Shown piece after piece: positions 3 through 9,724 of a stretch of DNA of 33,939 nt. The notes under the pieces are model-generated. The model was not told where the DNA came from, did not search any database, and saw only the letters and a program-made list of their open reading frames with translations. The stretch is from Clostridia bacterium. GTDB lineage: Bacteria; Bacillota; Clostridia; Lutisporales; Lutisporaceae. A program made the position numbers and the translations under genes. The stretch covers positions 18,508 to 52,446 of the forward strand of contig JAGOLK010000007.1 of the NCBI GenBank assembly GCA_017994115.1, given 5' to 3'. The number at the start of each line of letters is the position of its first letter. Positions within the stretch are counted from its first letter, which is position 1.

Positions 3-327
3 TTTTTCTTCCATGTAGTAAGCCCTAATTCCTGCTGAATCGGCCAAGGAATACCTGGCCGGAGCAGTACTTTTGGGTGCGGCCCCCTGTACGGCAATGG
101 TATTCGTATGGAGCCATCTTACAAAGGGAGATCCTGCATATACCCTGGTGCAGGCAGCAGTGAATGATTTGATACTGCTAGCCGCCTTTACTCCTATAGT
201 GTCTTTTCTGCTTGGTGTCAGTGATGTTGCTGTTCCTTATGATACATTATTCCTGTCGGTTATATTGTTTGTGGTAATACCTTTGGCAGGATGCACTGCG
301 GGAGGCAGCCATGACTGCCAAAAATAA
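3..327 (+). pseudogene. ACR3-type arsenite efflux pump remnant (truncated and frameshifted)
   Basis: ACR3 pumps (bile acid:sodium symporter superfamily) export As(III) thiolates across the membrane. From about position 22 the frame reads [14 protein letters not shown] and then [13 protein letters not shown], the characteristic central segment of clostridial ACR3 with its conserved cysteine, and continues through two hydrophobic helices. The upstream residues F-F-F-H-V-V-S (positions 3-23) are ACR3-like but lie in another frame, and the in-frame codons at 16-21 are TAG TAA, so there is a frameshift near 20-24. After I-P-L-A-G around 300 the similarity stops and the reading ends at 327, so the last several transmembrane helices are missing. 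The start of the gene lies outside the window. I read it as non-functional. It shows that the following genes belong to an arsenic locus. Confidence 0.75.
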
Positions 328-368: not shown

Positions 369-671
369 ATGAACAGTAATCTGAAAAAAGCTGGAGTATC
401 TCCTTGGCTGTATGGCTATATCAGACAAAGAGGAGATTCTATGAACGTAACCTTGAGACTTTCTATGCACGGGTGATGAGTGGCTTATGAAGAACCATCT
501 GGATTGATGGGAAAACCTGAAAACCCGGAGAAATTCACTGCTTTCTTGGTTCGGGATATAGTAATATATATTGATAATGATATTCTGGACGAATACCTGA
601 AGGATAATAAGCTGCATATAAATATAGAAGGCTATGGGCGTCAGCTTTTTGAGATTAAGGAGGAGTCTTGA
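369..671 (+). CDS. CC/Se-motif (seleno)protein with two adjacent in-frame TGA (Sec-Sec) codons
   Basis: Read through TGA TGA at 474-479, one frame gives a protein of about 100 residues. It has G-Y-I-R-Q-R-G-D-S, then M-N-V-T-L-R-L-S-M-H-G, U-U at residues 36-37, V-A-Y-E-E-P-S, G-K-P-E-N-P-E-K-F, and an acidic C-terminal half (Y-I-D-N-D-I-L-D-E-Y). This matches my recollection of the small 'CC/Se motif family (seleno)protein', in which a vicinal CC, CU or UC pair precedes a Y-x-P-x-x-x-x-G-K-P segment. Vicinal thiols or selenols would suit binding of arsenic or organometals, but the function is inferred. Similarity runs without a break across both TGAs, which argues against decay. A conventional gene caller would start at 480 and lose the active motif. 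The start is uncertain: ATG 369 is used, while GTG 357 has the better upstream purine run (AAAGGGTG). It ends immediately before the DUF2703 gene. Confidence 0.72.
495..510 (+). promoter_or_regulatory. candidate bacterial SECIS hairpin for the tandem TGA
   Basis: CCATC (495-499) and GATGG (506-510) form a 5-bp stem with the loop TGGATT, which has G at its second position. The loop begins 20 nt after the second TGA, within the distance bacterial SelB-binding hairpins usually occupy. It lies inside coding sequence, as bacterial SECIS elements do. Not folded computationally. Confidence 0.45.
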
Positions 672-1274
672 ATGAATAATAGGGAAATTTTGAGCAGTGG
701 ATGCCGCTCATGCGGATCAGGCTGCTGCGGTGGAGAGGTACCAAAGCAGGCTGGCAAAAGAAAAGTGGTTATAGATTTTTTATACCTTGATTTGAGTGTC
801 TGTAAATGGTGCCAGGGTACGGATAAAAGCCTCGAGGAAGCTTTGAATGATATTTCCAATGTATTGCAGGCATCCGGTATTGAGGTTGTTGTTAACAAAA
901 TCAATGTTACCAGCGAAGAACTGGCAATAAAGCATAGATTCATCAGTTCCCCTACAATCCGTGTAAACGGCAGGGATATTCAGATGGAGGTCAGGGAGAA
1001 GCTGTGTGATTCCTGCGGGGATCTGTGTGGTGACAGCGTAGATTGCCGTGTATGGGTATACAACGGAGAAGAGTATACAATACCGCCAAAAGCCCTGATA
1101 ATAGAAGGCATTCTGAAAGCTGTGCATGGCGGAGAAACAGCATGTGAGAGCTCTGAGTATAAACTGCCTGAAAACTTGAAAAAGTTTTATAAATCGATGG
1201 ATCAGAAAAACAAAATCAATGATGATTTTAAGAAAAGTTCATGCTGCGGAAGTGGAGAAAATAAATGCTGCTAA
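672..1274 (+). CDS. DUF2703 Cys-rich thioredoxin-fold protein of the arsenic locus
   Basis: A 200-residue soluble protein. The core (about residues 33-155) carries the DUF2703 signature: V-I-D-F-L-Y-L-D-L-S-V-C-K-W-C-Q-G-T, then S-S-P-T-I-R-V-N-G-R-D-I, then C-D-S-C-G-D-L-C-G with further cysteines, and Y-T-I-P-P-K-A-L-I-I-E. This looks like a thioredoxin-like fold with a CxxC in the usual position. Both ends are unusually cysteine rich: S-S-G-C-R-S-C-G-S-G-C-C-G-G at the N-terminus and S-S-C-C-G-S-G-E-N-K-C-C at the C-terminus. Vicinal pairs of this kind typically hold trivalent arsenic or other soft metals. It follows the CC/Se protein with no gap and precedes the permease by about 56 bp, so the genes are probably one transcript. 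Family identity is firm; the biochemical role (metalloid binding, or thiol redox partner of the permease) is inference. Confidence 0.82.
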   Translation: MNNREILSSGCRSCGSGCCGGEVPKQAGKRKVVIDFLYLDLSVCKWCQGTDKSLEEALNDISNVLQASGIEVVVNKINVTSEELAIKHRFISSPTIRVNGRDIQMEVREKLCDSCGDLCGDSVDCRVWVYNGEEYTIPPKALIIEGILKAVHGGETACESSEYKLPENLKKFYKSMDQKNKINDDFKKSSCCGSGENKCC

Positions 1275-1330: not shown

Positions 1331-2347
1331 ATGAGCTATATTACTCAAATATTCAGCTGGTTAAATGCTCAGCTGCTAAAAATGGCATGGCTGTCGGAGC
1401 TGGTTGAAGCTCTGGTGGAGAAGGTATTTGGCTTATCCGTCGAAACAAGGCTTGGAGGAAGCATTCACTTTTTTATTTATGATGTAATTAAGATATTTAT
1501 ACTTCTGTCAGTACTCATATTTGCAATATCCTATATACAGAGCTATTTTCCGCCTGAGAAGACCAAGAAAATGCTTGGCGGCTTTAAAGGTATCAAGGGG
1601 AACATTTTAGGTGCATTGTTAGGTACTATAACACCCTTCTGAAGCTGCTCCAGCATACCGATATTTATCGGTTTTACCTCGGCCGGGCTGCCGTTGGGTG
1701 TAACATTCTCGTTTTTAATATCATCACCATTGGTTGATTTAGCTTCAATGCTGATATTGATGTCATTCTTTGGAGCCAAGATTGCAATTGCTTATGTTGT
1801 TGTCGGACTGATACTTGCAGTAGCAGGTGGTACGGTCATTGACAAGCTGGGACTGGAAAAATACGTTGAGAGCTATGTAAGAGATATAGAAAATGTCGAT
1901 CTGGATATGTCGGAAATGACACGCCATGAAAGGATTTCTTATTCAAAACAGCAGGTAAAGGATATTATTAAGAAAGTCTGGCTGTATATATTGATCGGTG
2001 TTGGCATGGGAGCCGCAATCCACAATTGGATTCCTCAAAGCATAGTGGAAAATGTCATAGGAGAAAACAATCCTTTTGCGGTTTTATTGGCAACTGCTAT
2101 AGGAGTCCCGATGTATGCTGACATATTCGGTACTATTCCTATTGCAGAAGCATTGTTTTCCAAAGGTGTAGGGGTAGGTACCGTTCTTTCCTTCATGATG
2201 GCTGTTACAACGTTGTCTCTGCCTTCGATGATATTGCTGAGCAAGGTTGTCAAGCCGAAGCTCCTGGCAATATTTGTTGCAATTGTATCTATCGGTATTC
2301 TGATAATAGGGTATTTGTTCAATGCAATTTCCTTTATTTTAATATAA
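1331..2347 (+). CDS. ArsP/DUF318-family permease with selenocysteine (TGA) at the TPFCSCS cysteine
   Basis: Read through TGA at 1640-1642 this gives 338 residues of a predicted permease (PF03773, the family of the organoarsenical exporter ArsP). The N-terminal half has helices around S-I-H-F-F-I-Y-D-V-I-K-I-F-I and ends in G-A-L-L-G-T-I-T-P-F. The TGA (residue 104) is followed without interruption by S-C-S-S-I-P-I-F-I-G-F-T-S-A-G-L-P. The family motif here is T-P-F-C-S-C-S, so the TGA falls exactly on the conserved first cysteine. The C-terminal half repeats the fold (A-T-A-I-G-V-P-M-Y-A-D-I-F-G-T-I-P-I). ATG 1331 was chosen because a strong GGGGGAGGTG site ends 7 nt upstream. A standard caller would report two broken genes. 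The likely role is efflux of arsenic or organometal species; the substrate is unproven. It is flanked by a DUF2703 gene and a thioredoxin-like gene. Confidence 0.8.
1657..1672 (+). promoter_or_regulatory. candidate SECIS hairpin for the permease TGA
   Basis: ACCGAT (1657-1662) pairs perfectly with ATCGGT (1667-1672) around the loop ATTT. The loop starts 20 nt after the TGA, the same spacing as in the upstream tandem-TGA gene. It lacks the G often seen in bacterial SECIS loops, so the assignment is tentative. A second small hairpin, GCTG/CAGC at 1644-1654, lies too close to the TGA to be the usual element. Confidence 0.35.
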
Positions 2348-2373: not shown

Positions 2374-2604
2374 ATGGTAATAAAAGTATTGGGTTCAGGC
2401 TGCATGAACTGCAGGAAGCTAGAGGAGAACGCAAAAGCGGCAGTGAAGGAACTGGGTATTGATGCAAAAGTTGAGAAAGTGGAAAATTACAAAGACATAC
2501 TGGCCTATGGAGTAATGAAAACACCGGCACTTGTTGTAAATGAGAAAGTGAAGGTTATGGGCAGAGTTGCAGACACCGAAGAGATAAAAAAGCTTCTGGT
2601 ATAA
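2374..2604 (+). CDS. small thioredoxin-like protein (TM0996/MTH895 type, CxxC)
   Basis: A 76-residue protein opening V-I-K-V-L-G-S-G-C-M-N-C-R-K-L, i.e. a CxxC active site right after the first strand, and containing the cis-proline segment M-K-T-P-A-L-V-V-N-E-K-V-K-V-M-G. Both are typical of the minimal thioredoxin family that often sits beside ArsP-type permeases and ArsR regulators. AAGGAGG lies just upstream of ATG 2374. As the last gene of the resistance block it would be a thiol reductant or metal relay for the permease or for the selenol/thiol proteins upstream (inference). Its active site uses ordinary cysteine codons, unlike the permease and the CC/Se protein. It runs towards the ThiF-type gene on the other strand, leaving only 7 bp between their stops. 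Confidence 0.85.
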   Translation: MVIKVLGSGCMNCRKLEENAKAAVKELGIDAKVEKVENYKDILAYGVMKTPALVVNEKVKVMGRVADTEEIKKLLV

Positions 2605-7933: not shown

Positions 7934-9724
7934 TTATGGAAGATACTTCTCTCTGATTTCCTTTATATCTGCAGCCTCAAGGTTGTCGACCACTTCAATT
8001 ATTCCTAAGATGTAATTGTCTTTTACAATTGCATAGCCATCAATATTTTTTGGACTAAACTCGATTTCATTTATACCTTTTTCGGCTGTAAAAGTCGTAA
8101 CATCTTTTCCTGTTGAGGCATCTATTATCAGGTACTCTCCTTCAGCATTGTCAAAGTCGGTTAAATCAAAGGTCAGACTGATTTTCCCGCCGCTGCCTGC
8201 AACAGCTATCAAAGGCTGAAGTTCATAACCGATACCTTTGAATGTCACACTTTGCTTCTTCCCGTCAACCAGTGCTTTACTAACTAACTTTTCAGTCGGC
8301 ACCTTGCTTATATCATCGCCGTATATGCTGGGCTGGCTTGGTTCATCCTCGTCAATCGGCACTGCACAGCAGCTTGGGCCTGTACTTGGAGGCGGCAGGG
8401 ACGGATCAGCCTTCGAGGTATCTACGGAATCAAGATTATCAACGACCTTTATGACACCGCCTATCATACCCATCCAGCAGCTGAAGTTTATATCCTTATC
8501 CCCCGGTGTAAATTCTATAATATTTTCTCCCTTTTTAATTTTCCGCTCAAGATTCAATGCTCGTGCAACAATCGCATTATTACAGGAATTCAATTCTTTT
8601 CCGTCAATTATCCACTTGACAGGTATTCCTTTCTGGACATAAAAAGCATTAGGCTTATAACCGTTATTATCAGCAGTCATATTTATAATCTGTATACCAT
8701 CCTGTAAAGTCGCCTTCGCAACATATGGATTTGAAGAGCCTACCGAATTGCTTGCAAAGGCAGTTATTGGATTAATATTTATACCTGCCAGCGCGAGGCC
8801 TCTGTTGCCCATAATCAGACCGAGTACTATTATAAGCACACCGCTGAATTTAAGTATTTTCTTGGTATAACCTTTGCTGAGCAGCCCTGATAATGCGCCG
8901 AAGGTCAGCATAAGGGGTACTGTTCCTATAGAAAATACAAACATTGCCAGGGCTCCTTTTGCCGCACTTCCCGTGCCCAGAGCGAAAAGCTGCATGGTCT
9001 GGAGCGGGCCGCAAGGCATTAGTCCGTTTAAAAGGCCGACAATAAGCGGAGAGCCGGACTTGGATTTTGCTTTACATGCAAATTGGGGAAGCCTAATCTG
9101 AAACTTTCTGAAAGCGCTGAAGCCTGCCATATTTAAACCCATAATAATCATAAATACACCGGCAAATATCTGAACGGCGGCTTTTGTAGTAATAGAAAGC
9201 GTAAATACTGAACCAAGGGCACCGATTGCCCCGCCAAGAATAGTGTAAGATATGACTCTCCCAATATTATATAATAGAGCCGGCTGAACGGCTTCGAACT
9301 TGTTTTTACTTTCTTTTGACAAGCTTTGTGAAAGCATTATACCGCCGCACATACCTACGCAGTGGAGCGAAGTAAGAACTCCTACGACAAAAAGAACCGC
9401 ATAGGAAGCATTGGCAAGCTTTGCCTCCATGTCAAAACCGCCGGTTTTTAACCCGAGCAGCACTATACCCACCGCAATTATAAGGATCCCCATGAATTTA
9501 TAGTCCTTGGAACCTTCTGTGCTGTATCCGGCATTTTTTACAGCATCCTTAATATTATTCATGCTGCATAATTCATCATCATATTCAATTTCCATATATT
9601 GTCCGCTGTAGCTGGCTTTGGCATATATAATTCCCTCTAATTGCCTGACGGCTTTTTCAACACGATTTTCACAAGAGGTGCAGGTCATTTCATAAATTTT
9701 GATTTTTTCTCTCTTAATGCTCAT
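7934..9724 (-). CDS. HMA - TauE/SafE membrane - cupredoxin-like fusion, copper handling
   Basis: A 596-residue multidomain protein. Residues 5-70 are a heavy-metal-associated domain (M-T-C-T-S-C). Residues about 78-315 are a sulfite exporter TauE/SafE (DsbD-like) membrane domain with L-H-C-V-G-M-C-G-G and N-G-L-M-P-C-G-P-L, cysteine motifs that in this subgroup are linked to copper or thiol transfer. Residues about 335-425 form a cupredoxin-like domain ending F-S-C-W-M-G-M-I-G-G-V-I-K-V-V-D, with candidate Cys and Met ligands. A Pro-rich linker with S-C-C-A-V then leads to a C-terminal beta domain that repeats the I-x-E-V-V-D-N-L-E ending. AGGAGG precedes ATG 9724. It diverges from copA across 171 bp with a CsoR-like site, which supports Cu(I) trafficking to or across the membrane. 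Substrate and direction are inferred. Confidence 0.82.
   Translation of the reverse strand: MSIKREKIKIYEMTCTSCENRVEKAVRQLEGIIYAKASYSGQYMEIEYDDELCSMNNIKDAVKNAGYSTEGSKDYKFMGILIIAVGIVLLGLKTGGFDMEAKLANASYAVLFVVGVLTSLHCVGMCGGIMLSQSLSKESKNKFEAVQPALLYNIGRVISYTILGGAIGALGSVFTLSITTKAAVQIFAGVFMIIMGLNMAGFSAFRKFQIRLPQFACKAKSKSGSPLIVGLLNGLMPCGPLQTMQLFALGTGSAAKGALAMFVFSIGTVPLMLTFGALSGLLSKGYTKKILKFSGVLIIVLGLIMGNRGLALAGININPITAFASNSVGSSNPYVAKATLQDGIQIINMTADNNGYKPNAFYVQKGIPVKWIIDGKELNSCNNAIVARALNLERKIKKGENIIEFTPGDKDINFSCWMGMIGGVIKVVDNLDSVDTSKADPSLPPPSTGPSCCAVPIDEDEPSQPSIYGDDISKVPTEKLVSKALVDGKKQSVTFKGIGYELQPLIAVAGSGGKISLTFDLTDFDNAEGEYLIIDASTGKDVTTFTAEKGINEIEFSPKNIDGYAIVKDNYILGIIEVVDNLEAADIKEIREKYLP

Follow-up and report, generated by a model that had tools for sequence, protein, structure and literature searches.

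Two adjacent in-frame TGA codons in a small gene of a Clostridia bacterium are very likely both read as selenocysteine (Sec), which gives a small bacterial protein with a side-by-side Sec pair; there is no protein-level proof at either position. The gene, here called the UU gene, lies in the window, that is, the whole stretch of 33,939 nucleotides that was analysed (Table 1). As claimed in the original prediction, which was made from the sequence alone, the frame is open except for the two TGAs, and the conserved pieces VTLRLSMHG before and VAYEEPS and GKPENPEKF after the TGAs are present. Translation with Sec at both TGAs gives MNSNLKKAGVSPWLYGYIRQRGDSMNVTLRLSMHG-UU-VAYEEPSGLMGKPENPEKFTAFLVRDIVIYIDNDILDEYLKDNKLHINIEGYGRQLFEIKEES. 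The claim that standard annotation would lose the first 36 residues together with the motif held in part: 35 residues and the motif (Sec36, Sec37) are lost. The Sec-Sec reading is well supported by conservation, homology, SECIS covariation and the Sec machinery, and we regard it as very likely, with the actual insertion at both UGAs being inferred. The whole reading, an IscA/HesB-like Sec-Sec protein for arsenic handling in which both UGAs are decoded via one SECIS, is considered likely.

Table 1. Features at and around the UU gene, in positions of the window
Feature	Position	Strand	Evidence and remarks
acr3 fragment (arsenite efflux)	22..327	+	TIGR00832 E 2e-25; tblastn against the intact acr3 of L122
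UU gene	369..671	+	100-residue protein with predicted Sec36-Sec37; ATG at 369; stop TGA 669-671
Sec codon 1 (U36), predicted	474..476	+	conserved in 46/46; distance to P50 is 14, equal to that from the motif in UC/UA relatives without gaps
Sec codon 2 (U37), predicted	477..479	+	conserved in 46/46; most single-Sec relatives have Cys or Ala in this column (hhalign: CC on UC columns)
bSECIS-like hairpin CCAUC-UGGAUU-GAUGG	495..510	+	loop GG starts 21 nt after TGA2 and 24 nt after TGA1; fold and covariation
DUF2703 / DF-family-like protein	672..1274	+	abuts the UU stop (TGAATG); PF10865 E 8e-38
ArsP_1 permease	1331..2347	+	PF03773 E 7e-68; in-frame TGA 1640-1642 (TPFUSCSS)
Small thioredoxin-like protein (GSGCMNCRKLE)	2374..2604	+	ORF L019 10882-11112; homologues near many UU loci

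Relatives were sought in the order, class and phylum of the window, in the class of one Anaerolineae carrier and in a scan of named genomes. The two-TGA gene was found in 47 genomes of two phyla, namely that of the window and 46 further ones, which is far beyond chance. The carriers in Clostridia and other Bacillota belong to the window's own family and to other families of the phylum, and include Geosporobacter subterraneus, G. ferrireducens (an isolate with a complete chromosome) and Anaerosolibacter, while those in Chloroflexota are 24 Anaerolineae. The in-full sequence counts rest on 46 UU copies, all of which have TGATGA, and no Cys was found at either Sec site among the UU relatives within the searches made. 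Identity to the window protein ranges from 26 to 60% across the UU relatives, and only W13, U36, U37, S44, G48 and P50 are invariant in the 46 sequences. In close pairs, the parts before and after the TGAs both have a pN far lower than pS. The search of viral contigs revealed no UU relative. A locus recorded as Calditrichales bacterium MX18-03 (L070, JAJGRE010000004.1) does not add a third phylum: it matches genome G014, which is placed in the window's family, and the record is probably mislabelled.

Three other explanations of the TGAs can be set against these data. A pseudogene or an assembly artefact might be suspected because the window comes from a metagenome-assembled genome (MAG), in which a scaffold gap lies nearby and acr3 is truncated. 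However, the same TGATGA occurs in isolates, including the complete chromosome of G. ferrireducens, and in 47 genomes overall, so this possibility is all but excluded. The same can be said of the TGAs as true stops with separate re-initiation of the downstream part. In its favour, GTG follows the TGAs directly in the window and ATG does so in some relatives, but only 8 of the 46 copies have ATG or GTG immediately 3′ of the TGAs, and therefore stop-and-restart is not the conserved feature; furthermore, the upstream and downstream parts can be aligned together throughout the members and are predicted to fold as a single domain across the TGAs. Global reassignment of TGA was rejected too, because 13 of the first 26 UU copies end in TGA, which is thus an ordinary stop elsewhere.

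A bSECIS is expected to have a loop of 3–9 nt, a stem of 4–16 bp, a G in loop position 1 or 2 and a distance of 16–37 nt from the UGA (PMC13188914, section 5). The window hairpin, with a 5-bp stem and the 6-nt loop UGGAUU, meets all four rules, and both UGAs are within 16–37 nt of its loop, at a distance of 20–24 nt. The G at loop position 1 or 2 is present in all 46 UU copies. The energy criterion (MFE ≤ −7.5 kcal/mol) is attained by 44 of the 46 hairpins; that of the window is near the limit, with about −7.2 kcal/mol alone and −8.3 over positions 474–515, and its tip is a U-U mismatch, one of only two such mismatches among the 46. The first hairpin energy z-scores were unimpressive, and an Rfam scan around the UU gene gave no meaningful match. 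The SECIS claim is carried by covariation and not by energy. Over 26 sequences, the covariation score was 0.225 versus 0.124 in shuffled alignments (reached in 0/500 shuffles), with 94.5% of the cells paired and nine double changes versus 1.4 in shuffles. The tip pair in the 46 sequences is A-U in 24, C-G in 14, G-C in 4, U-A in 1, U-G in 1 and mismatched in 2, and its mutual information was not reached in any of 2000 shuffles. The 5′ base of this pair falls on the third position of the Ser44 codon and is silent, and the 3′ base alters residue 46, which is Leu, Arg, Ser, Gln or Trp, tracking its partner. It must be noted that the sequences are phylogenetically correlated, so these p-values are optimistic.

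Of the Sec genes named in the original prediction (selA, selB, selC and selD), selA, selB and selD are present in the window's genome in one selB-selA-selD cluster (G000:C3:12267-16703, locus L018), and tRNA-Sec was not found in this MAG, which is 81% complete. Its best matches to RF01852 were rejected, being tRNA-Ser, -Leu and -Trp according to ARAGORN. The selD of this genome has an in-frame TGA of its own. Across the relatives, selA scored above the cut-off in all 26 UU genomes tested versus 256 of 398 in the background sample of the phylum, and tRNA-Sec exceeded 65 bits in 21 of the 26; the five without a clear tRNA-Sec are all MAGs, that of the window among them.

The original prediction also placed the protein in the CC/Se family, with both TGAs at its vicinal Cys/Sec pair. 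The position held: hhalign of the UU proteins against the single-Sec/CC relatives gave a probability of 99 and an E value of 5.8e-18, with CC on CC, and the UU pair falls on the CC/UC/CU motif columns of NF041239, the model of this family. The membership held only partly. NF041239 was the sole match of the window protein in the profile search, at 35.8–35.9 bits (E 6e-9), just under the curated cut-off of 40, and all 16 UU members scanned match it at E up to 0.1; we therefore treat the UU proteins as a sister subfamily, not as formal members. They are homologous to the Moorella-type NF041239 proteins over nearly the full length and share the vicinal motif columns and a similar SECIS distance, whereas the single-Sec copies found here have UC, CU, UA or CC and never UU. 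In the literature NF041239 is given with one Sec and the motif CxxU (PMC13188914). Many UU genomes also have separate single-Sec or CC paralogues. In a tree of 74 proteins, the UU proteins form one clade (support 99/96) without reversion, whereas outside it UC, CC and UA interchange, and UC and CC change several times; the tree has few columns and its deep forks are unresolved.

These relatives also bear on the origin of the second Sec. The distance from the motif to Pro50 in the UC and UA forms of other families is 14 without gaps, equal to the distance from U36, which makes U36 probably the ancestral site. The hairpin loop of the single-Sec paralogues is mostly 20–24 nt from the UGA, at about the same distance as here, and therefore the simplest explanation is that the second Sec came from the vicinal Cys with one SECIS for both. 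Accordingly, we infer it as likely that U36 is the old Sec site and U37 a former Cys converted by one base change. In this scheme, a Cys codon (TGC/TGT) 3′ of the existing Sec and 5′ of the existing SECIS would have become TGA and been retained since, turning the vicinal Cys/Sec pair of the CC/Se type into Sec-Sec on a small IscA/HesB-like scaffold, and SelB with tRNA-Sec would decode both UGAs through the one hairpin 24 and 21 nt downstream. Alternatively, only one UGA could be Sec and the other a site of termination or misreading, yielding a selenium-dependent switch or a heterogeneous product. The presence of a single SECIS and the unproven nature of two successive insertions speak for it. 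However, both columns are Cys/Sec in the relatives, neither UGA has reverted in 46 copies, the coding constraint persists downstream and both UGAs are at an acceptable distance (16–37 nt) from the loop, so we regard it as very unlikely.

The structure model of the UU protein (pLDDT 89.8) has only weak matches, all the top ones being of the IscA/SufA/ErpA/DsrR type (Foldseek E 0.008, VIA Z up to 5.9). The model of a single-Sec paralogue (pLDDT 87.5) matches IscA with Z 10.2 and SufA with Z 9.7, the next unrelated chain having 2.1. The fold is thus predicted, on the basis of models in which the UU protein's own match is weak, to be IscA/HesB-like without the C-terminal CxC. The UU protein would share this fold with the HesB-like selenoproteins (TIGR01911, UxGP) and the A-type carriers IscA, SufA and ErpA, and likewise has its Sec near the first cluster cysteine position: when aligned with HesB-like selenoproteins by MAFFT, its Sec pair falls on their Sec, in the loop of the first IscA cysteine. 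It differs from them by two adjacent Sec, by the absence of a PF01521 match (none for the window protein at E up to 0.1) and by the absence of CxC; the window protein contains not a single Cys and no C-terminal cluster ligands. Weak matches to NF038090 (NCBIfam) were found in 5 of 16 UU members. The hhalign match between UU and HesB-like selenoproteins (E 0.012, 28 columns) was discarded as not significant, and a PDB sequence search with the UU profile gave only chance matches.

The genes arsR, arsD, arsA and acr3 are located upstream of the window (locus L019). In the window's MAG acr3 is broken (22-327; L019 8237-8799): an N gap of 100 bases interrupts the part that matches residues 21–220 of 370, nothing remains of the last 150 residues and an assembly gap is directly upstream of the window. 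In relatives acr3 is intact and is often followed by a metallophosphoesterase. Downstream, the DUF2703 protein scores 56.5 bits with NF049942, under the cut-off of that model, and has homologues near the UU gene in L112 and L123. The ArsP_1 permease is related to the SaoE / SO_0444 transporters, and its orthologue in L123 has equal length with Cys at the TGA position; it is predicted as a likely second selenoprotein of the operon. Two copies of a membrane protein with HMA and DsbD-like (and cupredoxin-like) parts flank the operon region (7934-9724 on the minus strand, and L019 1392-2843).

Across the relatives, an ars marker (ArsA, ArsD, ACR3, ArsP or ArsM in the fetched stretch) is present at 23 of 46 UU loci versus none of the 12 paralogue loci (Fisher p 0.002), without correction for relatedness and with stretches of different lengths. 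A metallophosphoesterase with an invariant CGC adjoins the UU gene in several relatives. The ars-linked Cys-Gly-Cys metallophosphoesterases at L121, L109, L071 and L074 are probably arsenate reductases of the Car1 type; ars operons of isolates have been described to carry a metallophosphoesterase resembling the arsenate reductase Car1 (PMC12124457). Seven UU copies from two families are in operons of the order Fer4, aldehyde ferredoxin oxidoreductase (AOR), in some cases ThiS, UU and Fe_hyd_lg_C. Such tungsten aldehyde oxidoreductase loci, in which the UU gene has the AOR gene on one side and an Fe-hydrogenase-like gene on the other, are L114-L118, L124 and L125, some with ThiS/MoaD. In the Anaerolineae loci L164, L165, L166, L172, L178, L076 and L077, a radical SAM/SPASM protein is close to the UU gene. 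Because about half of the UU loci are without an ars marker and seven are in AOR operons, it is possible that arsenic is not the common denominator; the AOR operons caution that what the UU loci have in common as substrate may be a different metal, or electrons only.

By general chemistry, adjacent selenolates are a strong ligand pair for soft metal(loid)s and a low-potential redox couple. The UU protein would thus have, in its two selenolates, a site that holds soft metal(loid)s strongly and is redox-active at low potential. In the lineage of the window, it would act within the ars operon (arsR, arsD, arsA, acr3 and the ArsP permease, with a Car1-like arsenate-reductase homologue in relatives), where its most likely role would be to bind or hand over trivalent arsenic or to supply electrons at that step. 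The arsenic context in two phyla favours binding or transfer of As(III)/methylarsenite, or electron supply for arsenate reduction. The original prediction had likewise proposed a selenol-selenol site for arsenic or organometals, which has not been shown and remains an inference from gene neighbours. It is also possible that the Sec-Sec is real but serves as a diselenide/diselenol electron carrier for an arsenate reductase of the metallophosphoesterase type or for the tungsten aldehyde oxidoreductase, and not as a metal(loid) binder. For this speak the UU gene directly after the invariant C-G-C metallophosphoesterase in relatives, a family to which arsenate reductase activity has recently been ascribed (PMC12124457), the seven copies in Fer4-AOR(-ThiS)-UU-Fe_hyd_lg_C operons and the small thioredoxin-like proteins as frequent neighbours; however, the predicted fold is IscA-like, not thioredoxin, and the neighbours fit metal(loid) transfer equally well. 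Our preferred reading is a protein of arsenic handling whose bis-selenol site binds metal(loid)s or serves redox chemistry, with the arsenic chemistry, As binding and partners inferred from gene context. A bolder assumption, which we are slightly inclined to doubt, is that the UU proteins are a prokaryotic subfamily with an obligate Sec-Sec, inserted at consecutive UGAs via a single SECIS, whose bis-selenol loop on an IscA-like scaffold would be a metal(loid) transfer site that connects the reduction of arsenate or the maturation of tungsten enzymes with efflux or insertion.

Consecutive Sec-Sec was claimed as a first case in 2020 for the algal PDI_e with the motif GUGUU (PMC7539508). That protein shares the Sec-Sec but is eukaryotic, with a thioredoxin-like fold and a eukaryotic SECIS, and is unrelated to the UU protein. 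A 2026 review of 119 prokaryotic selenoprotein families and subfamilies has no UU motif in its table (PMC13188914). The SAO and Tso operons cited there likewise have several selenoproteins clustered around metal(loid) chemistry, but their genes differ and the UU protein is absent from the family table. The novelty holds within the literature covered, and an existing UU record in NCBI's notes on NF041239 or in the Haft papers is not excluded. The Sec-Sec reading would explain a gene that is truncated by standard annotation, and the UU family points to selenium chemistry inside arsenic-resistance operons. Moreover, a conserved bacterial UU family would lend itself naturally to testing how two successive UGAs are recoded by SelB with one SECIS, and it is directly testable since cultured carriers exist (Geosporobacter, Anaerosolibacter).
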